Assembly: GCF_030719295.1 (NCBI RefSeq)
Contig: NZ_CP120997.1
Span: 6,706,001-6,770,000, forward strand
Origin: Streptomyces sp. Mut1
Lineage (GTDB): Bacteria > Actinomycetota > Actinomycetes > Streptomycetales > Streptomycetaceae
DNA length: 64,000 bases
Reading direction: 5' to 3'
The notes beneath the pieces are model-generated. The model made no database searches and was not told the DNA's origin. It was given only the letters and a program-made list of their open reading frames with translations. Below, piece by piece: positions 28,303 through 46,926 of the stretch; position 1 is the first letter of the stretch; each line of letters starts with the position of its first letter. Position numbers and translations under genes: made by a program.

Positions 28303-28386
28303 GGTGGTGCGGGGATCGGGCCGTGCCCGTGGTCAGCCGCAGGGAGGTGGTGCGGAGTCGGTCCGTACCCGTGGTCAGCCGCCGGG
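28303..28386. repeat. Imperfect 41-bp tandem duplication over the giant gene's stop codon
   Basis: Copy 1 (28303-28344) and copy 2 (28346-28386) share GGTGGTGCGG, the CCGTGGTCAGCCGC block and spacing, with about eight differences. Copy 2 contains the stop codon of the giant gene. Copy 1 repeats the same TGA context downstream. Confidence 0.7.
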
Positions 28387-31300
28387 TGGGGTGGCCGAGA
28401 AGCGGCGCCCGTCGAAGTACAGGTTCAGCGGGTCGCCCCCCTCCGGTCCGAACGCGCGGACGCCGTCGCCGGGTCCGAGCACCCGCACCGGACGTCCGGC
28501 CTCCCGGGCGACCAGCGCGGCCAGGGTCGCCACGTACGCCGGGGAGTCGGGGCGTGCCAGGACCAGCGCGAGGCGCGCGGCGTCGTCGAGTCCGGCCTCC
28601 TCCACGGTCACCCGGCCGCTCTGGAGGATCGACTGGGCGCGCAGCGCGTCGGTGAGGGCATCGATCCGGGCGAGGTCATCGATGCTCACCAGCGTCTCGC
28701 CCTCGGGGAGTTCGGCATCGTCCGGGGCCCGGCGTGCCGCCACGTCCGTACGCGCCCATGCGCGCAGCGCGCCGTGCGGGTCGCGCGACCCGGTCCACGC
28801 CGGGGCGTCGCCCGACGCGGTGAGCAGCCGGGAGAGCGAGGCCACGAATGAGTCCGGACGCTCGCCCCGGGGGACCGGCGGCGGGCCGCCCGCGTCCTCG
28901 GCGTCCTCCTCGTCGCTGTCGTCCTCCGAGTCCGTGTCCGAGGCGTCGGGCTCCTCCTCGATCCCGGGCGGCGCCGGCCGGCCCGTGCGGATCGGCCAGC
29001 CCGCCGGTGTACGGGCGAAGGAGCCCGTCGGGAGTGGCACCGTGCCGTCGCCCGCCGCCGCGCGCTCCGCCTCCAGGACGGTCACGAGGTCGGTCAGGCC
29101 GTTCTGGGCGTCGCGCTGCCGGTCCGCCTGACGGGCCTGTTCGGCGAGGGCTTCGCCGACCCGGCGTTCGAGGCCGTTCACGCCCTGCTGGGCCGCGTCG
29201 AGTGCCGTGACCGCGGCGTCATGGCGTTCGGTGGCCGCGGTCAGGGCGTCGCGGGCCTCCCGGTCGGTCCGCGACGCCGTCGTGGCCGTGGCACGGGCGC
29301 GGGTCAGCGCGGAGGCCGCGGCGCCGGCCGCGTCGCGGGCCATGTCACGGCGGCGGACGGCGTCCTCGGCCGCGTGCCGGGCGGCGTCGGCGGCGCGCTC
29401 CGCCGCCTCGGACGCCGTCCGGGCCGTCTCCAGCGCGGCGCGGGCACCGTCCCGGCGTACGGTGCGGCGGGCGACCGACCCGCTGGAGCGGCTGGACCCG
29501 TGCGACCCGCCGGACCGGTCCGACCTGCCCGAACCGCCGGACCTGGAACCGCCGCGCGAGGCCGCATCGGCCACCGCCTCCCGCAGGCTGCGTTGCGTCG
29601 CCTCCAGATGTTCCCGCGCGGCGCGGACCGCCTCCTGGGCCTCCTCCGCCTCGCGGGTCGCCGCCGTCGCGCGGGACCGGCGGTCCTGGGCGTCGGCCGT
29701 CAGCTCCGCGACACGGGTGCGCCGTTCCCGGTCGGTGCGTTCGGCGGCGGTGACCGCGCGCTCGGCGGCCGTGAGGGCGTCGCGGGCGTCCCGCTGGGCG
29801 GCGCGGGCGTCGTCCAGGTCCCGCCCCGCACGCGCCACCGGGGGCTGGGCCTCGTCCAGCGCCCGGCGCGCTCCGGGCAGTTCGGCCTGGAGCCCCGCCT
29901 CATCGGCGCGGGCCGCCTCCTCCGCGTGCGCCGCCTCGTCCAGCGTGCCGACCTGCTCACGGACGGCCGCCCAGCCGGCGCCGTCCTCCTCCGGGCCGGC
30001 CGGCTCCGGCTCGCCGTCGGCGTCGAAGCGGCGGAAGCGCACGCCCTCGTCGTTGCGCAGCGCCAGCTCGACCGGACGGTGCAGCAGCGCTGCCGCGCCG
30101 GCGGCCGCGTACAGCGCGCGGGCCGTCCGCCCCGGGCCGCCGTCCACGGCGAGCCATATCTGCACGCCCTCCACGGCCGCCCCGCCGTCCGCCCGGACGC
30201 CGTCCGCCAACAGCGCCGGCAGGTCGCGCAGCGGCACCGTGCGCCAGTCGCGCAGTACGGCGTCGGCGACGGCGTCGGCCGGGGCACCCGCCGCGTGGGC
30301 GCGGGCGTCGGCGGCTTCCCGCACCAGGGCGGCACCGTCGAACGTCCCGGCGTCGGTGCGGGCGCCGGTCACACCGAGGCCCAGCAGATCGCGCTCCAGG
30401 GGGCGCATCCGCACCGTGCCCGTCACGTACCGCACGCTGTCCGGGCCGTGCACGGTGATCAGCGCGTCGGCGAGGATCTCGTGGCTGCGGGTGCCGCGCG
30501 AGCCCTCCGGGGCGCTGGTGTTGCCGTGCTTGAGCCAGTCCCGGCGGGTGCCGCTCACGGCGGCGCCGGGCCCGGGGGCCTGCGGCTGGCGGGCCAGCAC
30601 CGGGACGGTGAAGTTGACGATGTGCCGGTTGTCGTCGGTGGCGGCGAGCCCGCCCTGTGCCGCGAGCCCGGCGGTGACGCCCGCCTGCGAGGAGGACGCC
30701 GCGCCGAACGTGCTCAGCCGCAGCCGGTCCACCGTCACATCCCCCGTGTCGGTGACCGGGCGCGGTCGGTACAGCTCCACCGTGAGGCGGGGCGGGGTGC
30801 CCGGCGCGCCCTGGAAGGGGTAGGCGCCCGGCATCGTCGTGGTCGGACCGGCCGGGCCGCGCGGGTGGTCCAGCGAGAGGGTGCCGGACTGGATCAGCTC
30901 GCCCACGCGCACCGCCGTGGCGTCCGCCGATCCGGAGGAGGTCAGGGAACGCCAGGAGCGGGTCAGCCCCGGGGCCACCTCGCCCAGCGCCGCGGCCAGT
31001 TCCGCGCCGCCGTCGAAAGCGTACACGGGGGCCGGGCCGTGCGGCACGAAGCGGTCCCCGGTCATCGCGGGCCGCGTGGTGGGCCGGGCCACCGGCAACG
31101 GCGCGGGCGTGGGGGCGGGGTCGCCGGTCTCGCTGCCGGTGAACCGCAGCGCGGCGGCGGTGTACACGGTGGTGGTCCGCGCCGGCCGGCCGCCGAACAG
31201 GTGCGCGATGCGGTCGGCGAGTGTCGCGTCCGCCTCGGTGAGGCTCAGCACGCCGTGCTGGAACAGGCTGCCCGGCAGGTCGAGCAGCCACTGCGCGGCC

Positions 31301-34300
31301 GGGGTCGACCGCACCTCGGCCACCACCCGGTACGGCACGCCCTCGAAGTCGGCGGCGTTGTCCGTCCGCTGCCAGAAGCGGTCCTCGGCGGAGCGGGTGA
31401 CGCGCGCCGCGTTGCCACGCGTCGTGTCGGCGCTGAGCAGCGCGCCCGCCCGGTCGGTGCGCGGGCCGCCGGTGGGCCGCGGGAAGCGCGACTGGAGCTG
31501 CACGAACCCGGCATGCCGCACACTGCGCGCCGTCCGGTCGGTCACCGAGGAGGGCACATGGCCGAGGAACTGCTCGATGCCCGAGCCCGAAGCCGCCGGA
31601 TGCCCGCGCAGCGCGCGCAGCGCGTGGTCGTCGGCGTCCGGCTCGGTGCGCAGCGTCACCTCGACCAACTGGGCGCCGCCGTAGCCGAGATAACGGAACC
31701 GGAAGCGCTGCACATGGCCCGGGCCGCGACCGGCGAGGGTGCGCAGGCCGGCCGTCGAAGACAGGTCGGCGATACGGGTCGCCACGCCCGGCAGATGCGA
31801 GGAGTGGCCGGGCCGGGTGATGCCGGGCGCCTCCTCCTCGGTCAGAGCGAGGAGCCGCTGCCGCAACACGTCGGGGCGCTGCACCGTGCGCGTCGCGTCG
31901 GTGAACTGGTCCACCGCGAGCACGCTGCCCAGACCCACTTCGCGGGAGGCCGTGAAGCGGCGCGGCAGCGGCACCGAGCCCACCGCCGGGCCCGGTACGG
32001 CAGGACCGGCCACGCCCGCGAACCACGCGGCGTGCCGCCGGATCTGCGCCGGGGTGGCCAGGAATCGCACCCCGTCCGCCAGGTCCAGCGCCACCGTCAC
32101 CGCGCGGCCCTCGCCCTGCCCGAACGCGTTGCCGACGACGTTGCGGCGGCCCCGGCGGAACGTCACCAGCAGCGTCGCGTCGGCCGTGATCCGGTGCTGG
32201 GTGCCGCTCTCGGTGGCGGTGCGGTAGGCGGTCGTCGTGGAGCCCAGCGCCCGCGACCGCTCGCTCCGGGCCGTACGGGTGTAACGGCCCGACGGGTTCA
32301 GCGTGCTCGGCCGGGACGCCGGCGGCGCGCTCTCCTCCTGACCGGTGCGGTCGGCGCGGGTCACCAGGACGTCGTCGAAGTCGTTGCCCGCCGCCTGGTC
32401 GGCGGCCGGCGTCTGGCTCGACGACGTGTTGCGGACCGCGCGGAAGCCGCCCGCCCACTGCGAGGTGCCTGCCGCGCCCCGCTGCTGTGCCGCTCCGTCG
32501 GTGGCGCTCAGACCGGTCTCGAAGTACTGCGAGAAACCGTCCGTCGCCCTGGGCCGCCGCAGTGCGCCGCGGATCTCCACCGACAGCACCTCGTCCGAGG
32601 CGAGCCCCGGCAGCGTCAGGCCCTCCACCACGTAGGCGCCCTTGAACACCTGGTGCCCCCGGGCCAGCAGCGCGGCGGGGCTGCGCGCGGCGGACAGCAT
32701 CTCCGCCGCCACCGTCGTCGGATCGGTGGCCGCCGCTCCCGCCAGCGACTCGCCCAGCGCCCGCCCGGCCCGCGCCACCGGACGCGGGGTGCGCCCGACG
32801 ACCGCGTCTCGCACGTCGTCCAGCAGACCGCGCGCCGGATGCCCCGGGTAGGTGTTGCCGAGCACGGCGCGGAACGCCGAGTCCAGCGCGGCGGACGCCT
32901 GGAACACCTCCATGATCGCGTCGTCCGGCAGCAGCACCGTGTCCGGCAGCGCGGCGCCCTCCTCGTCGGTCAGGTCGAGCAGGTCCCGGTCGGCGTCGGT
33001 GGCCGCGCGCAGCACCGGCGCCGGGGGAGCGGCCGGCACCGGAGCCCCGGCGGGAAGCGTGCGATGCGTCGGCACCGAAAGGCGCAGCGTGCCCGGCACC
33101 CGGTCCGGCGGCGGGCCCGGCGGCTCGGCGGGCGGGGCACCGTGCGGCACGAACGGCACCTCCACCGTCTCGTGCGCGAAACGCACCGACGGCTGCTCAC
33201 CGGGGCCCTCGTACAGGTCCAGCGCGAGGTCGGCCGGCACCTCGAAGACCTCGCTGCGCTGCCCGGCCCCGCTCCCGATGAACAACTGGTCGTGCCCGAC
33301 GCCCAGTTGCACGCTGTTGTCGTGCCGTACCTGGTTGCCGCGCACATAGTCGCCGCTCCCGCCCAGCGTCCACGAGCCCTTCGGCAGCCCGAACGAGCCG
33401 CCACCGCCGTACGAGAGCCCGTACGACGAACCGCGGTGGTCGGCGCCCGCCGCCGACAGGGACGCCACGCCCATGCCCTGCACGTCCGGCAGCACCCGGC
33501 TGTGCACGCTGTCGCCGTCGCCGCGCACCGCGCTGAGCACCAGCCGCACCCGCCGCGTCCCGGTCGCGGTCGGGATCTCCAGGAACAGCGAGTGGCCACC
33601 GTCCAGCATGGCGTCCGTGGCGGCCCGCTGCCCCACCTCCGAACGACCCTGCTCGAACCGGCGCAGATTGTTCAACTGCGCCTGTACCAGGGCCTCGTCG
33701 GGCAGCACCCGGTTGCGTCCCGGTGTGTCGCCGGGCAGGAAGCCCTCCCGTCGCAGCCAGTTCTCGGCGTGTACGAAGAGCGGTGCGGCGCCGTCCACGG
33801 CGAGTGGCGTCGCCGTCGTGCCGACCGACCGCAGGTGCTCCAGTTCCGCGGGCAGCCGCCGCAGCTCGTCCGCCGCCGGCGCGTGTCCGTTGGCGTCCTC
33901 GGCGGTCAGCAGCCGCAGATGCATGCCGCGCGGCCAGGCGTCCGGGGTGAACTCCCGCCGGCCGCCGCCCGGCAGGTGCAGCACCAGCGTGTGCCGCACC
34001 TCGGCCGGGGCCAGCAAATGGCTGCGGTTGGTGCGGACCGCGTGCATCAGCGCCGTACTGCCGCTCTGCACCAGTTCCTCGTGCGTGCCCGCCTGCGCGG
34101 ACACCCGCCCCAGCACACCGCCGCCGGGCCGTTGCGAGGCGTTCGGATGCCCCTGCGACCGGTCCGCGGTGAGCGCCGGACCGACGCTCCCGGACAGGGA
34201 GAGCCCGCTGCTGAACCGCGACTGCGAGTCCAGCTTGACCACCTGGGTCAGGTGGCTCTCCAGGTTGATCTTCCCGGCCACGCTGCGCCGCAGCGGCTCG

Positions 34301-37300
34301 CCCACAACGACCTCGGTCCGCAACTGGAACATGCCCAGGGCGCGCCCCGAGGTGTCGAGCAGCACCGGCGAGAACACCCCCCGGTCCCGCTGCATCGGCA
34401 GCGTGCCCCGCAGCAGCGGCTCCGACAGGAACGTCTCCAGCTCCGCCGCCGAGTCCTCGTCCAGCGTGCTCAGCTCGGTGCCGAAGAAGCCCAGCGCCTC
34501 CGCGAGCAGCCGCTGCGGCTCGGCGACCGTGTCCACGCCCCACACCGGCAGGTCGTCCAGACCGGCCGCCTCCGGCAGGTCGTCCGCCTCGTCCCGCGCG
34601 AGGTGCTGCGGGAACCAGAACGTCACCGGCCCGTGCGCCTGCGGCGGCCCCCAGGTGACCGGCGGCGCCAGCCGTGGCGCGTCCACCCGCACCTCCCACG
34701 AGGCCGTGAAGTCGTACGGCTCCGAGGGCTCGTTGCTGCGCTGGGCCGACGTCGTCTGCACCACCGTCGTCACCGACGACGTCGAGGACAGCTGGTTCAG
34801 GGTCATCGCCAGCGTCAGCGCCACGTCGACACCGCGCACCGGGATCGCCCGTGTCACCGGGAACAGGCCCGTCCACGGCAGCAGCAGCGTGCGGACCGTG
34901 CCCGACGCCTCAGCGGACACCGACTCCTGGGTGCCGATGCCGCGCCGCTCCACACGCACGTCACGCTCGGCGCCCTCCGTCTGCCCGTACCGCGCCGACG
35001 ACACCGGGTCCGACAGCCGCATCCGCACGTCCACGGTCCGGTCGCGGCCGTCCACCCGGACGGTGAACCGGAAGCCCAGACTGCTGCGCACATAGGGCAG
35101 GTTGAGTATCAGCTGCTCACCGCTCGCCACCGCCCGGAGCTGTACCCGTACCGGGTGCGTGTCAGGGGCGTCCCCCAGTCCGAGGGTGCCCATCACCTGC
35201 TGGTGCAGCCCCTCCACCACCGCCGGTGGCAGCGGCTCCAGGTACACCAGGCCCACATTGCCGTCCAGTTGGGCGCCGTAGGCGAGCACGTAGGTGGAGG
35301 ACGGCGCGGGCACGGGCGCCCGGGAGGTGGGCCAGTCGGGGGCTTCGGTGGCCGGAATGGGCGTGGCGTCGGGATCGGTGGGGGACTTGGTGGTCGCGGG
35401 GGTGTGGTCGTGGAGCTGCGGCCCGGAGTCGGTGACGTTCTCGATGGTGGCGAGGTAGCGGTGGGGGAGTGGCGCGAGGGTTTCGGTCGTGGCCATGAGG
35501 CCGTCGGTGCGGACGGCGCCGGCGTCGGGGTGGTTGCGGAAGAGGAAGTCGTTGTCGCGCTGTTCGTCGGGCAGGCCGAGGTAGTGCAGGAGTTCGTGGA
35601 GGAGCCGGCTGTCGGTGTGGTTGAGGTCGAGGTGGGTCTGGTCGGGCCGTGCGGGCTTGTCCGTGTGCGTGAGGGCGATGGCTTCCGGGTGTTCCGGGCT
35701 GTCGACGAGGTTGACGTTGACGTGGAACTGGTCGCCCGAAGCGGGCAGGGCGTAGCCGGTGTTGAGGTGGTGCTCCACGAGTTGCCCGAGGCGTTGCGCG
35801 AGCCGGGCGGTGTGCTGCGGATCGGCCGCGTTGACGGGGAGGTTGAGGGTGTAATCGCGTATCCATTGCCCGCTTGGGGCTTGGATACGGCGGATCTGGG
35901 CGCGGATGAGGGTGGTGGCGCCGGAGAGGAGCCCGGGCCGGGGGGCGTCGGCGGTGGGGTCGGCGTGGGGGTCGAAGCGTTCGGTGCGCAGGGTGGCGGG
36001 GCGGGTGTGGGGGCGGAGGTGGTGCCAGGTGTCGGGGTGCGCGGGCTCGGCGACACGGGGTGCGGGCCGGTCGTCACGGGGGGCGCGGCGGGGCGCGGGG
36101 CGGCGGCGTCCGGCGGGCCGGGTGCTGGGCGCGTCCTGCGGGCCGCGCGGCGCACTGGACGTCGGGATCGCGGTGAGCGGGGCCGCGTCGCTGGCCGTGT
36201 AGTGGTTCAGCCCCCAGTAGTGGACCTCCAGGACCCGGCCCGCGGTGGGTGAGCCGACGCGGGTCACCGTGCCGAGGCCGGTCGTGGGATCGGGCCTCAG
36301 CACCTCCACCGTGACGCCGAGGGTGTCGGCGAGCAGCGGCAGGAACATCTCGCCCTGGTCGCTCTGCCAGGCGCCGGACCAGTTCCGCACCGCGGCGAGG
36401 GCGTGGTTCAGCTCCTCGTCCGTGAAGGGGACGGTGCTCTCGGTGTAGGCGGAATCGACGACCTGACGGAGCTGGGCGTCGTCCAGTTCGTCGAGGGAGG
36501 GCAGCCGACCCGTGTCGCGCAGGTGGTTGAACATCTCGATGACGCCGGGGTCGGCCGGGCGGTCGGTCACCCCGTCCTCGGTCAGCGCGGCGTCGAAACG
36601 GGTGTTGAGGTCGTTCAGCTCCTCCGGCCGGCGCACCCCGCTGATGCCGTAGCGCCCGGCGGTGGCGAGGAGCTGGGACCGGTTCATGGCGGCCGTGGCC
36701 CGGGTGAAGCGCGGTGCCAGCGTCTGCCGGACCTGGCCCACCACGTCCTGCGGCAGCGGCCGTCCGCCCCGGTGCCCGTCGAGCAGCCGCTGTTCGGCCG
36801 CAGAGCGGAGGTGGTCGGCGGCGATCAGCAGATGGTTGCGGGCCTGCCGGGCGGCGGGGGAGGTGTCGCCGCGGGCGGCCAGGCCCAGACCGGTGCGCAC
36901 GTCGTCGGTGCGGCCCAGCCACGCGTACGTCTCCGGGGCCTGGGTGCTCAGTCCGGGCACCCGCTCGCGGACGCGCTGCGGATCGGTGCCGATGAACGTG
37001 TAGAGGATGCAGCGGCCGTCGTCGATCGTGGGCACGGTGTTGCCGCGCGGCGCGCGTACCTGGAAGGGCTCGGAGAGGGGCGGCGGCGGTGCCGTGCTCT
37101 CGGGCTCGGGCTCAGGCTTGGGCTCAGGCTTGGGCTTGGGCTTGGGCTTGGGTTCGGGCTCGGGTTTGGGCTCGGGCTCGGGTTTGGGGTCCGGGTCGGC
37201 GTCGGATTCGGAACGGGTGTCGCCGTCCTCGCCGTCCTTGCCGTGCTCGGAGGTGCCCTCGCTCTTGGGCGGGACCGGAGGCGTCGGGTCCGGCACGGTG

Positions 37301-40300
37301 ATCGCGGTCTCCGCCTCGGACGGGTCGTCACGGTCGTCGGAGCGCGGGTCCGAGGCGACCGAGGCGGTGGAGTCCGACTCGGCGTCGGAATCGGTGCCGT
37401 CCCCGATGGCGGGGCTGTTGCCGGTGGAGGGCCCGGCCGTCCTGGGCAGCCCGGAGCCCGGCGGGTGAGGGGTGGTGGCGGACAGCGACGACCGCGAGGG
37501 CGGCACGGCCGAGGGGCCGTTCGCCAGGACCGGCCCCGCGGCCGCGGGCAGGGCGGTCTCCGCGGCGGCGCGACGGGTGGCGGCGTCGTCGCGGCGGCCG
37601 AGGATGTCGTCCAGTGCGTGGTCGATCTCGCCGAGGCGCAGCTCGGCCCGGTCGTGCGACTCCTGCGCATCCTGGCGAACCAGCTCGGTGTCGTCGGCGT
37701 GACCGCGCGCCGCGTCGGCGTCGGAGCGCAGGTCCCGTGCGGTGCCGCGGAGGTCCGGGAGCTGTGCCTCAAGCTCCTTGAGGGCCGCCTCGTCCCGGGC
37801 GAGGGAGATCTCGGACTGCCGGAAGTTCGTCCGGTCGAGCGTCAACTGGTCCTGGATCGCGTCCAGTTCTCCGTTGATCCGGTCGACCTCAGCGGTCGCG
37901 GTGTCGATCCGCTCGGTGAGCCGCGGGTCGACGGCCGGGGGTGTCGCGGGGTCGGCCGTGGGTGTCGACGTGGTGCCGGGCCCGGGCTCCGTGGCCGGCG
38001 CGGGAGGCGCGGCGGCGGTCTCGTTGAGGGCGTCGAGAGCGTCTTGCGCCGTTTTCAGGTCGGTGACGAGACGGGCCTGCCGCCGCCCGCCCTGGGTGAG
38101 GGACTCGGTGAGCGCGTCGATCGTGCCGAGGGTGCCGGTGATGTCCGTGGTCAGCTTGTCGATCCGGCCTTCGAGGTCGCGGACGTCCTGCTCGGCCCGG
38201 TCGGCCCCGGTCTCCGCCGTGCCGGCCGCCCGGTCGGCGTCGTCGGCCGCCGTGCGCGCGTCGTCCAGCGTCGTGACCGCGCCCCGCAGTCCGTCCACCG
38301 CGTCCGACCGCAGGTTCCGCATCTCGGTCTCGTCCGCGAGGGCCTGTGCGTGGTCGCCGTGGGCGCGGTGCAGGTCGTTCGCGATGGTCTCGAAGCCGGC
38401 CCAGGCACGGTCCAGCGCAGGGTCCCCGATGCGCGGCGTGCTCTCCGTGCCCGGCGCCGAGGCGGGGGCCGGGGTGGTCCGCAGGGCGCCGTCCGGTCCG
38501 AACGACCAGAACCGCAGCCCCTCCGGGCCGCGCGTCACCAGCTCCACCGGATGCCCGGTCAGTCGGGCCGTACGGGACGACCCGTACAGCGCGAGGGCGA
38601 GCCGGGAGCCGTCCGGGTCCGCGCCGGTCGCCAGCCAGAACTGGTACCCGTCGTCGTCCGGATCGACCCCGGCGACAAGGGCGTCCGGCAGGTCGCGCGG
38701 CGGTGTGGACGCCCACTGCCCCGGCGCGGTGCCGGTCTGCGAGGCCAGCAGCGCGGGCAGATCGTAAACACGCGGGAGGGGCCGGGGCGGGGTGATGCCA
38801 TGGCCCAGCGCGTCGCGCTCCTCGATGCGGAGGGTGGCCGTACCGGTGACGTGCCGCAGCCCTTCGGGGCCGCTGACCTGGATGTGCACGTCCGCCTGGA
38901 CCTCGTAGCCGCGGGTGCCGTGCCCCTCGGCCGGGGCGCTGGTGCTGCCGGTCTTGAGCCACTCGCGGCGCCCGCCGGAGACGTTGCCGCCGAAGTTGCT
39001 CGGGTCGATGGGCCGTTGGAGTACGGGCGGAGTGGCGCCGACCAGATTGCGGTCGGGGTCGTCGGCGCTCAGCACGAACGGCAGGGACAGGCCCAGGGCG
39101 GTGTCGTTACCGGACACCGTGCCCGAGGTATCGGTGACGATACGCAGCCGGTCCACGGCGACGTCGCTGCTCTCGGTGACCACCCGGGGCCGGTACAGGG
39201 ACACCGTCAGGGTGGGCCCCTCCGGGGTGTCCCGGAGCGGGAAGGCGCCCGGCATGGCCGGCAGCATCCCGCCGACCTGACGCGGGTTGTCCAGTGTGAT
39301 CGAACCTGCCTGGAGCAGCTCCCCGAGGCGCACCGAGGCGTTCTCGTCGGAGGTGGACGCGGGCTGCGCGCGCCAGCCGCTGCCGGTGGCCGGGGCCACC
39401 TGGTCGAGGGCCGTGTAGAGCTGGTCCCAGGCGTTGAAGCCGTACACCGGGACGTTGCCGTTCGGGTGGAACAGCCCGTCGTCGCGCAGCGCGGGCTGCC
39501 CGTGCGGCGCCGGCCGCGGGTCGACCCGGGACACCGATACGGGGACCGGCAACGGGTTGCCGCCGCGCGGGTCGGCCGTCTCACCGCCGGCGAACCGCAG
39601 GGTGACGTGGGCCGGGACCCGGGTCCGGCCGCCGATCTCGCCGGCCAGGGTGCGGCTGATCCAGCTCCGGGTCGGCGCGTCGGCGTCGCTCCAGGCGATG
39701 AACCCGCGCTGCACCAGCGCGCCCACCACGTTCGGCGGCCAGTCCGTGACCCAGGTGGAGCGGACGGTGGCGACCAGTTCGTAGTCCAGGCCGTCGAAGT
39801 CGGCGGCGTTGTCGGTGCGCAGCCAGAACCGGTCCTCGGCGGTCCGGCCCCGCTTGTCGGTCTTGACACTGGCCGACGTCCACTGGGCGGACGGGCCGAG
39901 CCGGTCGGTGCGGTCGTCCGCGTCGGGCCGGGTGAAGCGGGCCGTCGGATTGAGGGTGACCCGGTGCTGCCGGCTCACCGTGTTCGCCGTGGACCGGCCC
40001 GCCGGGGTCTGCGACGTCCAGCTCTCCAGCCCCGACTTGTCGCCGGGGACGGCAGTGCCGCGGCGCGCGCCCCGGTTGGCGGCGGTGGTCGTGGGCCGGG
40101 CCGAGAACGTCACCTCGACCAGGGCCGCGCCGCCGAACCGGTGGTGCCGGAAGCTGAACCGGGCCTGGCCGCCGCCGCGTCCGATCAGCGCGCGCTTGCC
40201 CGCGGTGCTCGTCTGGTCGGCGATCAGGGTGGCGACGCCGGGCAGGTACGAGGCGTGGCCGGGGGTCGTGACGCCGGGCGCGTACCGGTCGAGGAGGCCG

Positions 40301-43300
40301 CGCACCTCGTTCTGGAACCGCTGGCGCTGCGCGGTGCCGGGCCGGCCGGTCGGGCCCAGTTCGGTGACCGAGGTGACCGAGGCCAGGCCCAGCGTTCCGT
40401 CCCGCACATAGCGGCTGGGCAGCGGCGGGCTCGCCAGGCCGGTGGGCGGCACGTCGGCGGGAAGCCCCTCGACGCCGCCCATCCACTGCCGGTCGCGGCG
40501 CAACTGGCTGTCGGTCATCAGGAATTGGAGGCCCTGCGGCACGTCCACGGCGAGCTGGACGGTCTGCCCGTTGGTGTAGCCGACGAAGTTCGCGAACGCG
40601 TTGCGGTGCCCGGAGCGGATGGTGATGACATAGGTGAGGTCGGCCGTGACCCGGTGCTGGATGCCCGTCTGGGTCGGTACCCGGTTGGTCGTCGTCGTAC
40701 TGATCGAGGTGTCGGACTTGTCCGCCTTGCGGTCGTACTGGTAGCGCAGGGACGGGTTGAAACGGGACGGCTGCCGGGTCTCCGCCGTGCTGGGCTGCGG
40801 AGCGGAGGTGGCACCGTCCTGCTGCGAGTTCGGCTCCGGGTCGGTGGCGGGGGCGGGCGACTTCGGGTTGTTCTGTGTCGCCGTGCCCGCCAGCCCGAAC
40901 TGGTGCGTCTTGCCAAGACCCTTGAGCTGCTGCGCCGAGTCGGCGGCGGCGACGTCCGACTCCATGTACTGGCTCGTGCCGGACGTCAGCCGCGGGTGGT
41001 GCGCGACGGCCTGGATCTCCGCGGAGAGCTGCCCGTCGGCGCCGAGCCCCGGCAGGGTCAGGCCCTCCACCACGTAGCTGCCGCCGAGTATCTGCTGTCC
41101 GCGCGCGACCAGCGAACCGGGCGAGAGCGCCGCGGTCCGGGACTCGGCGGCCACCGTGGTGGGGTCGGCGAACGGGTTGCCGGTGAGCGAGCTGCCGACG
41201 AACCCAGCGAAGCGGCTCAGCAGCGAGGGCGCCGGGGTGAGGGAGACCGGACCGGGGGCCGGAGCGGTGGTGCCGGTGGTGGGTGCCGCGCCGGTGACGA
41301 TGCGCTGGAAGGCGTCCTGGAGGGCCGCCGAACCCCGCATCACGTCCACCAGGGCGTCGTCCGGGACCCGCACCACGTCCGGGCGCGGTCGGCCGGTGCC
41401 GTCCGTCAGGGCCAGCCGGTCCCTGTCGAGCCGGGAGACCGGGCGTACGGTGAACGGCTCGCCGGCCGGCTCCGGCGCCGGGGCGTCCAGGGTCCGGCCG
41501 TGGGGCACGCCCAGCCGGACCGTGCCCGGCACCCCCGCCGGCACGGTGCCCGGCGCGGACTCCAGGTCACCGGGCGGGTGCGGCCGGGGCTCCGGGGTGC
41601 CGAAGCGGACCCGCGGCCCGGGGCCCGTGCCCTCGTACAGATCGAGCGTGAGGCGGGCCGGCACGTCGAACTCGTGGGCGTCCTGGCCCGAGCTGATGAA
41701 GAACTGGTCCTGACCGACTGTCGACGAGGTGGTGTTGCCGAGCGAGGCGTTGCCGACGTACTGGTAGTCGCCGGTGCCGCTCAGTGTCCAGGCGCCGTTC
41801 GGAGTGGGAATACTGGGGCCGCCGCCGAAGCCGAGGCCGCCGCTGTAGCTGTTGCCGAGCCTGCCGTTGCCGCCGGCCGTCGAAGACGACACGCTGATGA
41901 CGGCGATGCCCGGGAGAACCCTCCTGTGTACGGGCGGCCGGTCCGCGTCGGCGATTGCGCCGAGCACCAGCCGCACCCGGCGCCGCCCCGTCGACGAGGG
42001 TGTCTCCAGGAACAGCGAGTGCCCACCGTCCACCATGGAGTCGGTCGCGCCCCGCAGCCCCAGCCCGGAGCGCAGCTCCAGGAGCCGCCGCAGGTTGTTC
42101 AACTGCGCCTGCACCAACGTCTCGTCGGGCAGCGAGCCCCGGCGCGGCGCGTTCGCGGGAGGGGGCAGGAAGCCCTGGTCGCGCAGCCAGGTCTCGGCCT
42201 CCGCGAACAGCGGGGCCGTGCCCTCCACGCCGAGGGGCGCCGCCGACTGCCCGATCGAGCCGAGCGACGCCAGCTCGGCGGGGAGCTGTCTGACCTCGGA
42301 CTCGGCCGGCGCGTGGCCCCGGGCGTCGTCCGCGCTGAGCATGCGCAGGTCGAGGCCGTGCCGCCAGGTTCCCGGCGCGTACGAGGCGGTGCTGCCGTCC
42401 GGCCGGATCAGGGTGACGGTGTACGAGACGTCGGCCTCGGTCAGCAGATGGCTGCGGTTGGTGCGCAGCGCGTGCACGGAGGCCGCCGAGGAACTGGTGC
42501 CGAAGGCGTTCTGCGCGCCGAGCTGGAGGGTGCCCTTGCCGCTGAAACTCCCGCCGAGGGAGCCGGTGGCGTCCGGGTGGTCCGCCCGCGTGTCACCGGT
42601 GAACGACGGGCCGATGCCGCCGGCGAGGGCGACACCGCTGTTGAACGTGGTGTTCTGGTCGTTCTTGACCGTGTTGACGAGGTGGCTCTCCAGGTTGATC
42701 TTCGCGTCGATGCTCTTGGCGACCGGCGCGGTCGGCGTGACCCGCGCGTCCAGCCGCACCATGCCGACGGCCCGGCCGTTGCCGTCCGTCAGCACCGGCG
42801 AGTACAGCCCGCCGTCGCGCTGCATCGGCAGCGTGCCGCGCAGCACCGGCTCGGAGAGGAAGTCGGCGAGCTGCGAGGAGGACGTGGCGTCGAGGTCGGC
42901 GCGGAAGTGCGCCGCCGCGCCCTCGTACAGGCGCCGGGGGTTGAGCACCGAGTCCACGCCCCACAGCGGCAGGTCGTCCAGGAGGGCGGGAGCGGGCAGT
43001 TCCTGGGCGGGGTCGGCGTCCGCGTCCACCAGGTGCTGCGGGAACCAGGCGGTGACCGGCCCGTGCTGCCGCACCGGCGACCAGCCGTCGACGGGGTGGC
43101 TGTCGGTGGTCGGGGCGGTCGGCGTGGCAGGGGCCACGCGGACCTGCCAGTTGCCGTCGAAGTCGTAGGCCCGGGACGGCTCGGCGCTGCGCTGGGCGGT
43201 GGTGGTCTGCGTGACCTGGGTGACGGTGACAGAGCCGTCCGCCTGGTTGTGCGTGATGGTCGCGGACAGCGCCATGTCCAGCGAACGGACCGGACCCGCC

Positions 43301-44750
43301 GACGTGATCGGCAGCGAACCCGTCCAGGGCACGGGGATCGTCGAGAACGTGCCGGACGGCTGCGCCGAGACGTTCTCCCGGGTGCCCTGGCCGCGCCGCT
43401 CCACATGCTTGTCGGGGTCACTGGTGTCCAACTCGCCCTGCCGCGCGGACGGCCGCCCCCCGTCCAGGGCCAGCCGCACGTCCACGCTCCGGTCGGTGCC
43501 GTCGACGCGCAGCGTGACGCGGTGGCCGCCGAGGCTGCGCAGGTACGGCAGGTGCTGGGCCATCTGGGTCGCCGACAGCACGTCCCGCAACTGGGCGAGG
43601 ACCGGGTCGTCGGGGCGCGGGGCCGGCCGGCCGAGGGCGGTGATCACCTGCCGGTGCACGGCGTCCACGACATCCGGCGAGAACGGCTCCATGAGGACGA
43701 GCCCGACCTGCCCGTCGTGCCGCTGCCCGTAGCCGCCGAGGTAGGAGGGGCGGGGACCGCGCCCACCGGTCGTCTCCGGCTCGGGGTCCGGGTCCGGATC
43801 GGGCAGCGGAGCGGTGTCACCGTCCGCCGTGGTGAGCGTCAGCACCGGCACTACCGGCGGGGGCGCCGCCTCCTCGGAGGTGACGACGGGCGGGGGAACG
43901 GTTGTGTCGTCCGGGACCGGCGCGGACGTGGTGCTGATCGGGACCATCGGCATGGCTTCGGAGTCCGAGACCGGGTCGACGGCGGGCGCGGTGACGGGCG
44001 TTGTGGCGGGCGGGACGAGCGGCGCCGGCGGGTCCGCGCCGAGGTCGCCGGTGACCGGCACGGGCGGCGTCGCGGCGTCGCGGCGCTCACCGTCGGGGCG
44101 CGGCCGGGGCGCGTCGGCGGGGTCGCCCACCAGCGTGGCGATGAGCTGGAGGTGCCGGGGCCGCAGCCCGCCCGCCTGGTAGCCGGCCGGCTCCGGCGAG
44201 GGGGCGGGCACGGGGGCGCCGGTGACCGGGGGCGCGTCGCCCATCAGGCTTTCGTTGCCGCCGCGGTGCGGCGCGGCCGGGTCGAGGCCGCTCTCGTCGC
44301 GCAGGCCGAGCTGGTGGCCGATCTCGTGCGCCAGCGCCGAGTCGGAGATGTCCGCCGGCCATGAGTGGTGCGTGGTGGGCACGCCGTCCGCCGGGTCGGT
44401 CAGGGCGACGTCCAGGTGCGCGGTCTGCCCTTCGGCGGCCGGAATGACAGTGACGTGCAGCCGGCTGCCGTCGGGCAGGCGGTGGTCCGGGGTGTTGAAC
44501 ACCCTCCGCACACCCTCTTCGAGCCGCTGCCGCACCCCGTCGACCTCCGGGCCGAGCTGCGGGTCGCCCGTCACGCGATAGGTGACGGTGAGATCGGTGA
44601 CGGGCTCACCGCCGTGCGTGAACTGCCGTACGTCGAAGGAGGAACGCACCACGTACTGCGTCGGCCTGCCGTCCGGACCCGTGGGCCGCGAGACCGGGTC
44701 CACCCACGTGTGACTCCGCGGCGTCGGCGTCGCCCCGTTCCGCGCCTCCT
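28375..44750 (-). repeat. Two homologous halves inside the giant gene
   Basis: Half A (about 36170-44750) and half B (28375 to about 36010) share an ordered series of segments: HExxHxxGxxD; VGLV.(M/L)EP; LPY(L/V)RS; LPMQRD.G..SPVL; KINLESHL; AQLNNLRR; GG.SLFLE; YVVEGLTLPGL; NPS.RY; RTDNAADF; MPGA(F/Y)P; GTR.(Y/H)E; coiled coil. The offset between matching segments is about 2,815 residues. Divergence is substantial, so this is an old duplication rather than a recent tandem copy or assembly error. Confidence 0.9.
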
Positions 44751-46926
44751 CGAAACTGCCCGGCGCGGGGTGGGACGCCGGGGTGGCGGGCGGCGTCGGA
44801 GTCAGGACCACCGGCTCCCGTACGTCGTTGGCGACGGGGCCAGGTATGTCGTTCCGCACGGGGTGCAGCCCGTCGTTCTGGACCGGGTCCGTCGTCGAGT
44901 CCGACGACGAGTCGTTCCGGACGGGGTCCGGCGTCGAGTCCGAGGAGGATGTGTGCACGGGCGTCGGGCGGGGGGCGGGGCTGACGGCCGGTGCGTTGCC
45001 GGGTATGCCGTCCGGGGCGGTTCCCTGGGGGAGACCGGTCGGCGGCGGTGTGGTGCTGCCGGTGACGATCGGCTTGGGCGCTTCGGTGACAGGGGCGTGG
45101 GCGGCGGTGTCCCCGGTGCCGTCGGGGTCGGTGATGTCGCTCTCGGCGATGCTGTCGGTGTCACTGAACACGGAGTCCGTGTCCGAGCCGCCCTCGGTGT
45201 CGGTGTCGCTGTCCACGCCGGTTCGGACGTCCGTGTCCGTGTCCGTGTCGTTCGCCGTTGTGTCGTCGGGCTGCGGCGAACTCCCCGGACGCGGGGTGCC
45301 GTTGCCGGTGTGCGGCTGCTGCTGAACGGTCTGCGCCGGCGTCGGATTGCCGGGCACCGTCACCGGAGGGGTCGGCGTCGGCGTCCGGGTCGACGGATCG
45401 GTCACCGAGTTCACGTGGGGGTCGGTGACCGGGTCGGTGACCGTGACGTTGCCGTCGAGGTCCGGGACATCGCTGTGGACGTGGACCCCGTCGATCTTGA
45501 CGGGGTCCACGTGCACGCCGTCGAAGTGGACGCCGGACGGACCGTCGGCGGTGACCTTGCCGCCCGTCACGTCCACGTTCAGGTCGGGCGACTGGGTCGG
45601 AGGACGGAGGGTGACCGGGCCGTTCCGCCCGCCGCCCGTCGGGGACGGGCCCGGTGTCGGCACACCGTCGCCCGGCCCCGGGGTGGGCGTGCCCGGGCCG
45701 GGGCCCTTGCCGTCGCCATTGCCCGGGCGGGGAGCGTCGTCCGCCGTGGAGTCGTCCGGCGTGTCCGGGAGGTGCGCGGTGTTCACGGTGGGCGGCTTGG
45801 TGAAGTTGAACTTGTTGCCCAGGGCGGACGCGCCCTGCCCCAGATGCCGTTCGCTGACCGCGCTCAGCCCGCCGCCCAGGAAGGTCATCGGGCCCTCGAC
45901 GGGGAGATGGAAGATCGCCGCCGTGGCCAGCTCGCCCAGCGCCTCCGCGCTGCCCTCGGTGAGGAAGTGTCCGATGTCCTCACCGAGCTCGTGCTTGATC
46001 CTGTCCCCGAGGCCGGGGGGCGCGGTGGGGGGCGGCTTGGGCAGCGGGACCGGATTGGGCTTCGGCGTGGGGGTCGGCTCGGGGCCCGGCTTCGGCGTCG
46101 GCTTCGGGTCCGGCCGGTGGGAGGGCCCGTCGTTGAGGTGATGGTTGTCGAACTTGTTGTTGTGGAACTTGTTACCGTTGCCGTCGATGCTCTTGAACGG
46201 GTTGTTCCCGCTGCCCCAGAGGTTCTTGAAGTTCTTCTTCAGGTTCTTGAGGATGTCGTTGAGGAACCCGTGGAACAGTCCGGTGAACGCGCCGAAGACA
46301 CCGTCCTGGACGATCTGCGACCAGTCGAAGCCGTGCGGCCGCCGCCCCTTGGGCGCGCCCAGCATCATCGCGAGGCGGACCGCGAACGTAGTGAACGCCT
46401 CTTCGATCATCTCGGAGAGGGTCGGCAGCAGGTGGGTGCGCTTCATCAGCCAGTCGAGCAGCGTGAGGATCGCCACCCGGCTGCGTGCCTTGGCGACCGC
46501 CGCCTGGCTGGAGGCCGAACCGCCGGTGAAGATGGACAGCGCCATGATGATGGCCAGTTCGATCAGCAGCCGGATCAGCTCGGCGATGATCTGCCACTTG
46601 GCCTCCATGATGTCCATGGAGGACTTGGTGCGCGCCTTCTCCAGATCGTCGAGCTGGTCGGCGAAGTCCTTCAGGTAGTTCTTGCCGCCACTGTCCAGGA
46701 ACAGGTGCATGGCCTTGACGTACTGGTTGCCCACCCGCGGCGGCAGCGAGCGCCCCACGCCACCCGCGGTCTGCTCGATCAGGTCCGACAGGTCACGCAC
46801 CCGCCGCCCCAGCCGCCCGTAGGGCCGGCCGTTGGCGAAGGCCATGTCCTCGTCGGCCTGCAGCATTTTCTCACCGATCAGCACGAACAGCAGATTGTTC
46901 AGCTGCGGTGAAACCTGGATGCTCAT
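28375..46926 (-). CDS. Giant 6,183-aa T7SS-linked protein with two metzincin-like modules and a lone-Cys OTU-like module
   Basis: An uninterrupted 18.5-kb frame from ATG 46926, 18 bp after an ESX-like gene. Residues 1-225 are helical, with no signal peptide and a hydrophobic helix near 118-137, like T7SS substrate heads. Residues ~230-720 are Pro/Asp/Thr-rich linker. Half A (~725-3585) has HEIGHQLGLRD (~865) with Met-turn SLMGD, a beta-rich LPYLRS/RVDG domain (~1125), KINLESHL (~1410), coiled coil (~2860-3130), a Lys-Pro-Glu linker (~3240-3280) and an OTU-like domain with DGRC (Cys~3306) and NHY (~3573). Half B (~3640-6183) repeats the order with HELLHYLGLPD (~3776), KINLESHL (~4224), coiled coil (~5655-5960) and a degenerate end. 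I found only one Cys. I recall giant Streptomyces proteins named lonely Cys domain-containing; unverified. Probably an exported protease or effector. Confidence 0.93.
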   Translation of the reverse strand: MSIQVSPQLNNLLFVLIGEKMLQADEDMAFANGRPYGRLGRRVRDLSDLIEQTAGGVGRSLPPRVGNQYVKAMHLFLDSGGKNYLKDFADQLDDLEKARTKSSMDIMEAKWQIIAELIRLLIELAIIMALSIFTGGSASSQAAVAKARSRVAILTLLDWLMKRTHLLPTLSEMIEEAFTTFAVRLAMMLGAPKGRRPHGFDWSQIVQDGVFGAFTGLFHGFLNDILKNLKKNFKNLWGSGNNPFKSIDGNGNKFHNNKFDNHHLNDGPSHRPDPKPTPKPGPEPTPTPKPNPVPLPKPPPTAPPGLGDRIKHELGEDIGHFLTEGSAEALGELATAAIFHLPVEGPMTFLGGGLSAVSERHLGQGASALGNKFNFTKPPTVNTAHLPDTPDDSTADDAPRPGNGDGKGPGPGTPTPGPGDGVPTPGPSPTGGGRNGPVTLRPPTQSPDLNVDVTGGKVTADGPSGVHFDGVHVDPVKIDGVHVHSDVPDLDGNVTVTDPVTDPHVNSVTDPSTRTPTPTPPVTVPGNPTPAQTVQQQPHTGNGTPRPGSSPQPDDTTANDTDTDTDVRTGVDSDTDTEGGSDTDSVFSDTDSIAESDITDPDGTGDTAAHAPVTEAPKPIVTGSTTPPPTGLPQGTAPDGIPGNAPAVSPAPRPTPVHTSSSDSTPDPVRNDSSSDSTTDPVQNDGLHPVRNDIPGPVANDVREPVVLTPTPPATPASHPAPGSFEEARNGATPTPRSHTWVDPVSRPTGPDGRPTQYVVRSSFDVRQFTHGGEPVTDLTVTYRVTGDPQLGPEVDGVRQRLEEGVRRVFNTPDHRLPDGSRLHVTVIPAAEGQTAHLDVALTDPADGVPTTHHSWPADISDSALAHEIGHQLGLRDESGLDPAAPHRGGNESLMGDAPPVTGAPVPAPSPEPAGYQAGGLRPRHLQLIATLVGDPADAPRPRPDGERRDAATPPVPVTGDLGADPPAPLVPPATTPVTAPAVDPVSDSEAMPMVPISTTSAPVPDDTTVPPPVVTSEEAAPPPVVPVLTLTTADGDTAPLPDPDPDPEPETTGGRGPRPSYLGGYGQRHDGQVGLVLMEPFSPDVVDAVHRQVITALGRPAPRPDDPVLAQLRDVLSATQMAQHLPYLRSLGGHRVTLRVDGTDRSVDVRLALDGGRPSARQGELDTSDPDKHVERRGQGTRENVSAQPSGTFSTIPVPWTGSLPITSAGPVRSLDMALSATITHNQADGSVTVTQVTQTTTAQRSAEPSRAYDFDGNWQVRVAPATPTAPTTDSHPVDGWSPVRQHGPVTAWFPQHLVDADADPAQELPAPALLDDLPLWGVDSVLNPRRLYEGAAAHFRADLDATSSSQLADFLSEPVLRGTLPMQRDGGLYSPVLTDGNGRAVGMVRLDARVTPTAPVAKSIDAKINLESHLVNTVKNDQNTTFNSGVALAGGIGPSFTGDTRADHPDATGSLGGSFSGKGTLQLGAQNAFGTSSSAASVHALRTNRSHLLTEADVSYTVTLIRPDGSTASYAPGTWRHGLDLRMLSADDARGHAPAESEVRQLPAELASLGSIGQSAAPLGVEGTAPLFAEAETWLRDQGFLPPPANAPRRGSLPDETLVQAQLNNLRRLLELRSGLGLRGATDSMVDGGHSLFLETPSSTGRRRVRLVLGAIADADRPPVHRRVLPGIAVISVSSSTAGGNGRLGNSYSGGLGFGGGPSIPTPNGAWTLSGTGDYQYVGNASLGNTTSSTVGQDQFFISSGQDAHEFDVPARLTLDLYEGTGPGPRVRFGTPEPRPHPPGDLESAPGTVPAGVPGTVRLGVPHGRTLDAPAPEPAGEPFTVRPVSRLDRDRLALTDGTGRPRPDVVRVPDDALVDVMRGSAALQDAFQRIVTGAAPTTGTTAPAPGPVSLTPAPSLLSRFAGFVGSSLTGNPFADPTTVAAESRTAALSPGSLVARGQQILGGSYVVEGLTLPGLGADGQLSAEIQAVAHHPRLTSGTSQYMESDVAAADSAQQLKGLGKTHQFGLAGTATQNNPKSPAPATDPEPNSQQDGATSAPQPSTAETRQPSRFNPSLRYQYDRKADKSDTSISTTTTNRVPTQTGIQHRVTADLTYVITIRSGHRNAFANFVGYTNGQTVQLAVDVPQGLQFLMTDSQLRRDRQWMGGVEGLPADVPPTGLASPPLPSRYVRDGTLGLASVTSVTELGPTGRPGTAQRQRFQNEVRGLLDRYAPGVTTPGHASYLPGVATLIADQTSTAGKRALIGRGGGQARFSFRHHRFGGAALVEVTFSARPTTTAANRGARRGTAVPGDKSGLESWTSQTPAGRSTANTVSRQHRVTLNPTARFTRPDADDRTDRLGPSAQWTSASVKTDKRGRTAEDRFWLRTDNAADFDGLDYELVATVRSTWVTDWPPNVVGALVQRGFIAWSDADAPTRSWISRTLAGEIGGRTRVPAHVTLRFAGGETADPRGGNPLPVPVSVSRVDPRPAPHGQPALRDDGLFHPNGNVPVYGFNAWDQLYTALDQVAPATGSGWRAQPASTSDENASVRLGELLQAGSITLDNPRQVGGMLPAMPGAFPLRDTPEGPTLTVSLYRPRVVTESSDVAVDRLRIVTDTSGTVSGNDTALGLSLPFVLSADDPDRNLVGATPPVLQRPIDPSNFGGNVSGGRREWLKTGSTSAPAEGHGTRGYEVQADVHIQVSGPEGLRHVTGTATLRIEERDALGHGITPPRPLPRVYDLPALLASQTGTAPGQWASTPPRDLPDALVAGVDPDDDGYQFWLATGADPDGSRLALALYGSSRTARLTGHPVELVTRGPEGLRFWSFGPDGALRTTPAPASAPGTESTPRIGDPALDRAWAGFETIANDLHRAHGDHAQALADETEMRNLRSDAVDGLRGAVTTLDDARTAADDADRAAGTAETGADRAEQDVRDLEGRIDKLTTDITGTLGTIDALTESLTQGGRRQARLVTDLKTAQDALDALNETAAAPPAPATEPGPGTTSTPTADPATPPAVDPRLTERIDTATAEVDRINGELDAIQDQLTLDRTNFRQSEISLARDEAALKELEAQLPDLRGTARDLRSDADAARGHADDTELVRQDAQESHDRAELRLGEIDHALDDILGRRDDAATRRAAAETALPAAAGPVLANGPSAVPPSRSSLSATTPHPPGSGLPRTAGPSTGNSPAIGDGTDSDAESDSTASVASDPRSDDRDDPSEAETAITVPDPTPPVPPKSEGTSEHGKDGEDGDTRSESDADPDPKPEPEPKPEPEPKPKPKPKPEPKPEPEPESTAPPPPLSEPFQVRAPRGNTVPTIDDGRCILYTFIGTDPQRVRERVPGLSTQAPETYAWLGRTDDVRTGLGLAARGDTSPAARQARNHLLIAADHLRSAAEQRLLDGHRGGRPLPQDVVGQVRQTLAPRFTRATAAMNRSQLLATAGRYGISGVRRPEELNDLNTRFDAALTEDGVTDRPADPGVIEMFNHLRDTGRLPSLDELDDAQLRQVVDSAYTESTVPFTDEELNHALAAVRNWSGAWQSDQGEMFLPLLADTLGVTVEVLRPDPTTGLGTVTRVGSPTAGRVLEVHYWGLNHYTASDAAPLTAIPTSSAPRGPQDAPSTRPAGRRRPAPRRAPRDDRPAPRVAEPAHPDTWHHLRPHTRPATLRTERFDPHADPTADAPRPGLLSGATTLIRAQIRRIQAPSGQWIRDYTLNLPVNAADPQHTARLAQRLGQLVEHHLNTGYALPASGDQFHVNVNLVDSPEHPEAIALTHTDKPARPDQTHLDLNHTDSRLLHELLHYLGLPDEQRDNDFLFRNHPDAGAVRTDGLMATTETLAPLPHRYLATIENVTDSGPQLHDHTPATTKSPTDPDATPIPATEAPDWPTSRAPVPAPSSTYVLAYGAQLDGNVGLVYLEPLPPAVVEGLHQQVMGTLGLGDAPDTHPVRVQLRAVASGEQLILNLPYVRSSLGFRFTVRVDGRDRTVDVRMRLSDPVSSARYGQTEGAERDVRVERRGIGTQESVSAEASGTVRTLLLPWTGLFPVTRAIPVRGVDVALTLAMTLNQLSSTSSVTTVVQTTSAQRSNEPSEPYDFTASWEVRVDAPRLAPPVTWGPPQAHGPVTFWFPQHLARDEADDLPEAAGLDDLPVWGVDTVAEPQRLLAEALGFFGTELSTLDEDSAAELETFLSEPLLRGTLPMQRDRGVFSPVLLDTSGRALGMFQLRTEVVVGEPLRRSVAGKINLESHLTQVVKLDSQSRFSSGLSLSGSVGPALTADRSQGHPNASQRPGGGVLGRVSAQAGTHEELVQSGSTALMHAVRTNRSHLLAPAEVRHTLVLHLPGGGRREFTPDAWPRGMHLRLLTAEDANGHAPAADELRRLPAELEHLRSVGTTATPLAVDGAAPLFVHAENWLRREGFLPGDTPGRNRVLPDEALVQAQLNNLRRFEQGRSEVGQRAATDAMLDGGHSLFLEIPTATGTRRVRLVLSAVRGDGDSVHSRVLPDVQGMGVASLSAAGADHRGSSYGLSYGGGGSFGLPKGSWTLGGSGDYVRGNQVRHDNSVQLGVGHDQLFIGSGAGQRSEVFEVPADLALDLYEGPGEQPSVRFAHETVEVPFVPHGAPPAEPPGPPPDRVPGTLRLSVPTHRTLPAGAPVPAAPPAPVLRAATDADRDLLDLTDEEGAALPDTVLLPDDAIMEVFQASAALDSAFRAVLGNTYPGHPARGLLDDVRDAVVGRTPRPVARAGRALGESLAGAAATDPTTVAAEMLSAARSPAALLARGHQVFKGAYVVEGLTLPGLASDEVLSVEIRGALRRPRATDGFSQYFETGLSATDGAAQQRGAAGTSQWAGGFRAVRNTSSSQTPAADQAAGNDFDDVLVTRADRTGQEESAPPASRPSTLNPSGRYTRTARSERSRALGSTTTAYRTATESGTQHRITADATLLVTFRRGRRNVVGNAFGQGEGRAVTVALDLADGVRFLATPAQIRRHAAWFAGVAGPAVPGPAVGSVPLPRRFTASREVGLGSVLAVDQFTDATRTVQRPDVLRQRLLALTEEEAPGITRPGHSSHLPGVATRIADLSSTAGLRTLAGRGPGHVQRFRFRYLGYGGAQLVEVTLRTEPDADDHALRALRGHPAASGSGIEQFLGHVPSSVTDRTARSVRHAGFVQLQSRFPRPTGGPRTDRAGALLSADTTRGNAARVTRSAEDRFWQRTDNAADFEGVPYRVVAEVRSTPAAQWLLDLPGSLFQHGVLSLTEADATLADRIAHLFGGRPARTTTVYTAAALRFTGSETGDPAPTPAPLPVARPTTRPAMTGDRFVPHGPAPVYAFDGGAELAAALGEVAPGLTRSWRSLTSSGSADATAVRVGELIQSGTLSLDHPRGPAGPTTTMPGAYPFQGAPGTPPRLTVELYRPRPVTDTGDVTVDRLRLSTFGAASSSQAGVTAGLAAQGGLAATDDNRHIVNFTVPVLARQPQAPGPGAAVSGTRRDWLKHGNTSAPEGSRGTRSHEILADALITVHGPDSVRYVTGTVRMRPLERDLLGLGVTGARTDAGTFDGAALVREAADARAHAAGAPADAVADAVLRDWRTVPLRDLPALLADGVRADGGAAVEGVQIWLAVDGGPGRTARALYAAAGAAALLHRPVELALRNDEGVRFRRFDADGEPEPAGPEEDGAGWAAVREQVGTLDEAAHAEEAARADEAGLQAELPGARRALDEAQPPVARAGRDLDDARAAQRDARDALTAAERAVTAAERTDRERRTRVAELTADAQDRRSRATAATREAEEAQEAVRAAREHLEATQRSLREAVADAASRGGSRSGGSGRSDRSGGSHGSSRSSGSVARRTVRRDGARAALETARTASEAAERAADAARHAAEDAVRRRDMARDAAGAAASALTRARATATTASRTDREARDALTAATERHDAAVTALDAAQQGVNGLERRVGEALAEQARQADRQRDAQNGLTDLVTVLEAERAAAGDGTVPLPTGSFARTPAGWPIRTGRPAPPGIEEEPDASDTDSEDDSDEEDAEDAGGPPPVPRGERPDSFVASLSRLLTASGDAPAWTGSRDPHGALRAWARTDVAARRAPDDAELPEGETLVSIDDLARIDALTDALRAQSILQSGRVTVEEAGLDDAARLALVLARPDSPAYVATLAALVAREAGRPVRVLGPGDGVRAFGPEGGDPLNLYFDGRRFSATPPGG
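36190..37060 (-). other. OTU-like cysteine protease (lone Cys) domain of the giant protein
   Basis: Protein residues about 3290-3590. DGRCILYTF at the start fits the DG.C nucleophile motif of OTU-family cysteine proteases. FLPLLADTLGVTVEVLRPD and EVHYWGLNHYTAS at the end fit their closing strand and catalytic His. This Cys is the only one I could find in the whole protein. Catalysis is inferred from the motif pair; the fold assignment needs structure comparison. Confidence 0.55.

Follow-up and report, generated by a model that had tools for sequence, protein, structure and literature searches.

A minus-strand gene in the genome of Streptomyces sp. Mut1 encodes a protein of 6,183 residues with one cysteine, which lies in a predicted OTU-type domain whose Cys and His are conserved among relatives; the chain also carries an internal duplication and a predicted pseudo-OTU fold, and the gene has type VII secretion system (T7SS) neighbours. 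The gene occupies positions 28375..46926 of the window, by which we mean the whole stretch of 64,000 nucleotides that was analysed (contig NZ_CP120997.1, positions 6,706,001 to 6,770,000; assembly GCF_030719295.1). The reading that we favour, and that we place slightly on the probable side, is that the giant is a two-unit effector exported by the T7SS, that the OTU domain at the junction of the units cuts the chain or other targets, and that thiols are kept only at active sites. The initial annotation of this DNA had proposed an OTU-like Cys/His centre, export, a deficit of cysteine and a link to the label 'lonely Cys domain-containing'; the OTU-like fold and its conserved Cys and His, the likely export and the deficit have stood, and the 'lonely Cys' link has not.

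The frame is open from an ATG start over 6,183 codons, with a GC3 of 0.94. A count by computer finds exactly one Cys codon, a TGC at 37009..37011 (minus strand) for residue 3306 within TIDDGRCILYTF, with no scattered extras, which confirms what had been noticed by reading through the translation. From the base composition at each codon position, 65.9 Cys codons would be expected (Poisson probability of one or fewer, 1.5e-27), and TGY triplets number 41, 48, 206, 315 and 317 in the five other frames of the same DNA. The single-Cys state is beyond chance, and the deficit in the remaining chain is real. Two full-length orthologues, L091 and L092, are 94.4% and 92.5% identical to the giant over the aligned chain and have a single Cys each; together with dN/dS values of 0.27 and 0.28 against the giant, obtained by a simple count, this argues that the giant is a real protein under purifying selection. 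A partial close relative (P0002) has an extra second Cys, in a low-complexity linker.

Cys 3306 is modelled at the start of a helix, and the histidine of the LNHYTAS motif, His 3575 (codon 36202..36204, minus strand), follows 269 residues later, where the last strand begins. Both belong to a predicted thiol peptidase domain spanning residues 3285-3590 (36157..37074, minus strand). The initial annotation had suggested predicting the structure around residues 3280-3600 and checking the conservation of Cys, His and an acidic partner. The AlphaFold2 model of residues 3285-3590 (pLDDT 94) gives its best structural alignments with OTU proteases, the nearest folds being viral, human and Wolbachia OTUs that cleave ubiquitin, in keeping with the proposed OTU-like centre. 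Identity to nairovirus vOTU, OTUD1/OTUD3 and the Wolbachia wMel OTU is 11-13%, and unlike these the domain of the giant has a long helical stretch separating Cys and His. In an alignment of 45 rows (the window giant and 44 of the 57 loci described below), Cys and His are both conserved in 43, while, of the 44 other rows, 42 have a domain 29-65% identical to the window's copy. As for the acidic partner, an acid or amide is found at Cys-3 (D/N) or His+2 (D/N/E) in 41 of 42 scorable rows. An apparent swap of the acid between the two places (Fisher p 5.6e-4) was discarded, as it involves few changes on the tree and is tied to relatedness.

Pfam OTU models match none of the family members by sequence, either among 24 or among 45 of them, so membership of the OTU group rests on the fold and the residues. 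A search of PDB sequences with the Cys domain gave no significant OTU placement (nairovirus OTU 6oat_A, E 0.36 and 1.5); an adiponectin match in the same search was set aside as a short NHYDGS coincidence, occurring three times in one chain. A 95%-identical partial protein bears the NCBI name OTU domain-containing. Elsewhere in the window genome, a WXG100_2 protein (L148, G000:C1:3616000-3621500; a frame of 1,611 aa with 9 Cys) shows a GEGNCL motif, resembling that of OTUs, at frame residue 877. Two other OTU-like domains in giant frames, L030 (on a contig shared with L146) and L031, have lost the Cys and have no His in the aligned stretch. From the model and the conserved residues, we infer that the OTU domain of the giant is an active cysteine peptidase. 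That it instead serves in structure or binding, or acts as an acyl transferase, with a Cys kept by happenstance, we think very unlikely: the loss of the Cys in L030 and L031 and the presence of a pseudo-OTU in the same chain would suit such a role, but Cys and His persist in 43 of 45 rows of a domain so divergent in the rest of its sequence.

The rest of the chain appears to consist of two units, each with a metzincin-like HExxH domain, a module of about 1,800 residues and a coiled-coil-like stretch (all positions on the minus strand). An N-terminal WXG100_2-like domain (PF25547; residues 24-150, 46477..46857) scores 25.9 bits in a 1500-aa piece, where the cut-off is 27, and 31.0 bits, above the cut-off, in a search of the genome. 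The first unit comprises an HExxHxxGLxDE domain (residues 731-915, 44182..44736; motif HEIGHQLGLRDE at residue 867), which aligns with the second copy, a module of about 1,770 aa (residues 1043-2813, 38488..43800) and a coiled-coil-like stretch (residues 2841-3106, 37609..38406) with weak SMC matches far below cut-off. After the OTU domain the second unit repeats this order, with an HExxHxxGLxDE domain (residues 3631-3840, 35407..36036; motif HELLHYLGLPDE at residue 3777), a module (residues 3851-5638, 30013..35376) that is 43% identical to the first, and a coiled-coil-like stretch (residues 5672-5945, 29092..29913) with weak SMC/Rad50 matches. Neither module has a convincing match in a search of Pfam and NCBIfam library profiles. 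The extended zinc motif thus occurs twice, and the HExxH domains look weakly metzincin-like, with Pfam and PDB matches that are all weak; an anthrax-lethal-factor-like label was considered for them and dropped, being absent among the sequence matches. The chain ends in residues 6016-6183 (28378..28881), where Ser replaces the Cys and an Arg lies near the place of the His. By its predicted fold, which it has in common with the OTU domain, this C-terminal part is a cysteine-free pseudo-OTU; a profile comparison with the OTU alignment gave a probability of only 2-3%, and it was the fold that revealed the relation.

Relatives were collected in two ways. A profile of the OTU domain matched 31 of 392 Streptomyces genomes, among them the genome that holds the window, and across the class it matched 3 of 296 genomes and 2 of 114 genera, with two of the three genomes also in the Streptomyces set. 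Scanning named genomes yielded 57 loci (of which 54 are Streptomyces-titled, two from Actinobacteria bacterium OK074 and one from Micromonospora), which overlap the 31-genome set (e.g. L106/G223, L146/G122), so neither set is independent of the other. The motif Cys is present in the domain at 54 of the 57 loci and is the sole Cys of the frame in 24, a count to be read alongside clusters of extra Cys in the draft contigs L093, L095, L101, L142 and L145 that look like frameshifts. The longest frames of 24 relatives range from 3,412 to 15,168 aa. The longest (G068:C1, within 8690001-8770000; L038-L041) is one open frame with five modules, five HExxHxxGLxDE motifs, four OTU domains at the four junctions and a pseudo-OTU at the end, and its four Cys fall one in each OTU copy. 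The OTU domain sits between duplicated units of about 1,800 aa in the window giant, in G014, where it is placed between two modules, and in G068. At the G223 locus, the pseudo-OTU follows within ~40 residues of the OTU with no unit between them, and an OTU at every unit junction is therefore not universal.

This placement bears on what the OTU domain would do. In the reading we prefer, the thiol peptidase between the first and second units most probably cleaves the chain, either in cis or in trans, releasing the units after export, and may additionally cut target proteins, while the putative pseudo-OTU closes the chain. The main alternative, possible and in our estimate on the unlikely side, is that the OTU is a payload, a peptidase or deubiquitinase acting in or at other cells (rival bacteria, or ubiquitin-bearing soil eukaryotes) with no part in self-processing. 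The resemblance of the fold to ubiquitin-cleaving OTUs would fit such a role, and section 12 of Zhang et al. leaves room for the OTUs of T7SS proteins to act either as toxins or in processing (Zhang et al., 2012; PMC3482391). The fold match, however, is silent about the substrate, and in the window giant and G068 the OTU lies inside the chain, where units meet, and is repeated in the latter. Polymorphic toxins usually carry their payload at the C-terminus, a site occupied here by a pseudo-OTU that relatives have too.

Upstream of the giant gene lie genes for a neighbour of 1,051 aa (47806..50961), a WXG100 protein (51587..51910; PF06013, E 2e-11), a WXG100-like protein (51995..52333; PF06013, E 2.6e-5, below cut-off), EccB (52489..54015; PF05108, E 6.2e-106) and EccD (54069..55514; PF19053, E 3.6e-85, and YukD, E 2.5e-23), all on the minus strand, followed by an EccC-like ATPase with three FtsK/SpoIIIE stretches on the plus strand (55823..59806) and an AAA ATPase with a beta-helix on the minus strand (61120..63978), which we read as EccA-like. 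With its WXG100-like N-terminus and adjoining eccB, eccC, eccD and WXG100 genes, the giant has features of a T7SS (ESX) substrate; export, which the initial annotation had supposed, is likely on this sequence evidence, by way of the neighbouring type VII system. Among 26 giant loci for which limited stretches were fetched, EccB was found at 13, EccC at 8, a relative of the first 420 residues of the 1,051-aa neighbour at 14 and the N-terminal domain at 20; EccB was not in the fetched stretch at the other 13, in some cases owing to the end of a contig or stretch. The next gene downstream of the giant, at 27194-28285, encodes a Ricin-B-type lectin with six Cys, and a similar lectin stretch occurs at 6 of the 26 loci.

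Cysteines elsewhere in the family are also concentrated at putative active sites. In 25 frames (the window giant and 24 relatives) there are 96 Cys, of which 69 fit OTU (27) or caspase-like (42) motifs and 27 neither; these classes were assigned by regular expression, with second OTU-type matches in G301 and G481 that could have arisen by chance, and with a single Cys of G274 scored as caspase-like that sits inside the G274 OTU domain. The caspase-like class was defined by His-Gly or His-Ala 40-56 residues upstream of the Cys, a rule with a background of 8.1%, and in 35 of the 42 the upstream His is at 46-48 residues. The count leaves out G141 and G025, which have no frame with GC3 > 0.85, and uses stop-to-stop frames, some of them clipped by the ends of contigs or fetched stretches, so that a few of the Cys precede the true start (probably residue 3 of G091 and residue 18 of G335). 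The 27 Cys with neither motif come chiefly from six divergent relatives (G390, G122, G368, G301, G138 and G481). A recurring ICRDF/VCRDL motif in G335, G365, G301 and L115 is neither OTU nor caspase-like and is possibly another active site.

The caspase-like domain is where the 'lonely Cys' label belongs. The NCBI lonely_Cys model, NF012197 (707 positions), covers this domain and not the OTU; it matches residues 58-774 of relative L106 and has no match above the threshold of 200 bits in the window giant or anywhere in its genome, so the label cited in the initial annotation belongs to a neighbouring domain kind, and we reject the identification of the giant's Cys domain with it. As a positive control, the same search picked up the model in 13 of a set of 20 genomes made up of the window's own and 19 from relatives. 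NF012197 proteins resemble the giant in having a lone Cys in a peptidase-like motif and differ from it in being caspase-like, with the His upstream of the Cys. Both kinds of domain occur in one chain in L106 (the G223 locus), G306 and others. In six giants chosen for their strong NF012197 matches, and hence not a random sample, every one of the 25 Cys falls within an NF012197 match (19, including one whose match is below cut-off) or the OTU motif (6). A search of partially covered literature for 'lonely Cys domain' found no paper.

How unusual this economy is can be seen from Cys densities. The window giant has 0.16 Cys per 1000 residues and the 24 other OTU giants have 0.58 (95 Cys in 163,871 aa), against 4.76 in five NRPS frames of the window genome, picked among the longest (115 in 24,160 aa). 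In nine WXG100_2 proteins shorter than 2,000 aa the pooled figure is 3.72 per 1000 (51 in 13,711 aa), and nine other WXG100_2 giants of at least 3,000 aa, all outside the genus, have 0.91 (41 in 44,886 aa); the 20 WXG100_2 controls were hand-picked from 87 matches with long frames favoured, and the associated Spearman p of 0.04 ignores relatedness. These controls suggest that the deficit tracks size and the WXG domain jointly, and neither alone. It goes with giant T7SS-type chains, and is not confined to them, since L154, a short WXG100_2 protein, has its only Cys among the first residues of the frame. In the nine giants outside the genus (L156, L157 and L160-L166), 17 of the 41 Cys meet the His rule, often in SCYTG-type motifs, and ~25 look caspase-like by eye. 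The initial annotation had taken a lone Cys to be what is expected of an exported enzyme, which is too simple: the short WXG100_2 proteins are not Cys-poor as a group, the neighbouring lectin, which may or may not be exported, has six, and even Cys numbers are reported for ~60% of exported proteins in two Actinobacteria (PMC9974433).

On our preferred reading of a T7SS-exported two-unit effector, thiols would be selected against outside active sites, as a stray Cys in a long exported chain would oxidise or cross-link; the controls, in which relatedness is uncorrected, suggest that it is the export of a very long chain that would drive this purge. We regard as unlikely the alternative that the lack of Cys was inherited and not selected, the chain having been built and duplicated from Cys-free modules of biased composition. 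It draws on the same uncorrected counts and on the paralogy of the two modules, at 43% identity, by which their freedom from Cys may be one event. Against it, the WXG-like, metallopeptidase, module, coiled-coil-like, OTU and pseudo-OTU parts are dissimilar, the shared OTU/pseudo-OTU fold aside, and none has a spare Cys; the composition of the gene would give 65.9; all 25 Cys of the six relatives are within caspase-like or OTU domains; and low Cys densities extend to the giants outside the genus. A more general rule, which we put forward tentatively and hold to be doubtful, is that giant T7SS proteins of more than one family purge non-catalytic Cys above some length, so that the Cys count approximates the number of thiol-peptidase sites, with junction OTUs cutting after export and a pseudo-OTU capping the last unit. 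If this holds, it would suggest that thiols set a limit on the chain length open to type VII export; with a single reactive thiol per chain, a thiol-directed probe would then read out one enzyme among some 6,000 residues. The OTU/pseudo-OTU arrangement also gives a direct handle on whether giants cut themselves into units. In the window giant, the one Cys in 6,183 residues is tied to a predicted enzyme site, and relatives of up to 15,168 aa are also thiol-sparing.

Giant proteins of actinobacteria that carry OTU, caspase-like and metallopeptidase domains have been on record since 2012 (Zhang et al., 2012; PMC3482391), so this kind of protein is already known; the internal peptidases of such giants were suggested there to act in processing. 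In that account, sections 12 and 14 make no mention of Cys economy, a pseudo-OTU cap or junction placement, and 'disulfide' has 0 occurrences in the available text; a search of the literature, with partial coverage, likewise found nothing on Cys economy in these giants, the same paper covering the proteins themselves. What is added here is the placement and density of Cys, the pseudo-OTU C-terminus and the OTU between duplicated units. As far as these sections describe them, the giants of Zhang et al. are like the window giant in being very long actinobacterial chains with OTU and metallopeptidase domains together, and in having OTUs in proteins with WXG-type N-termini. The window giant is unlike them in its lack of an NF012197 domain, its Cys-free C-terminal pseudo-OTU and the position of its OTU at a unit junction.
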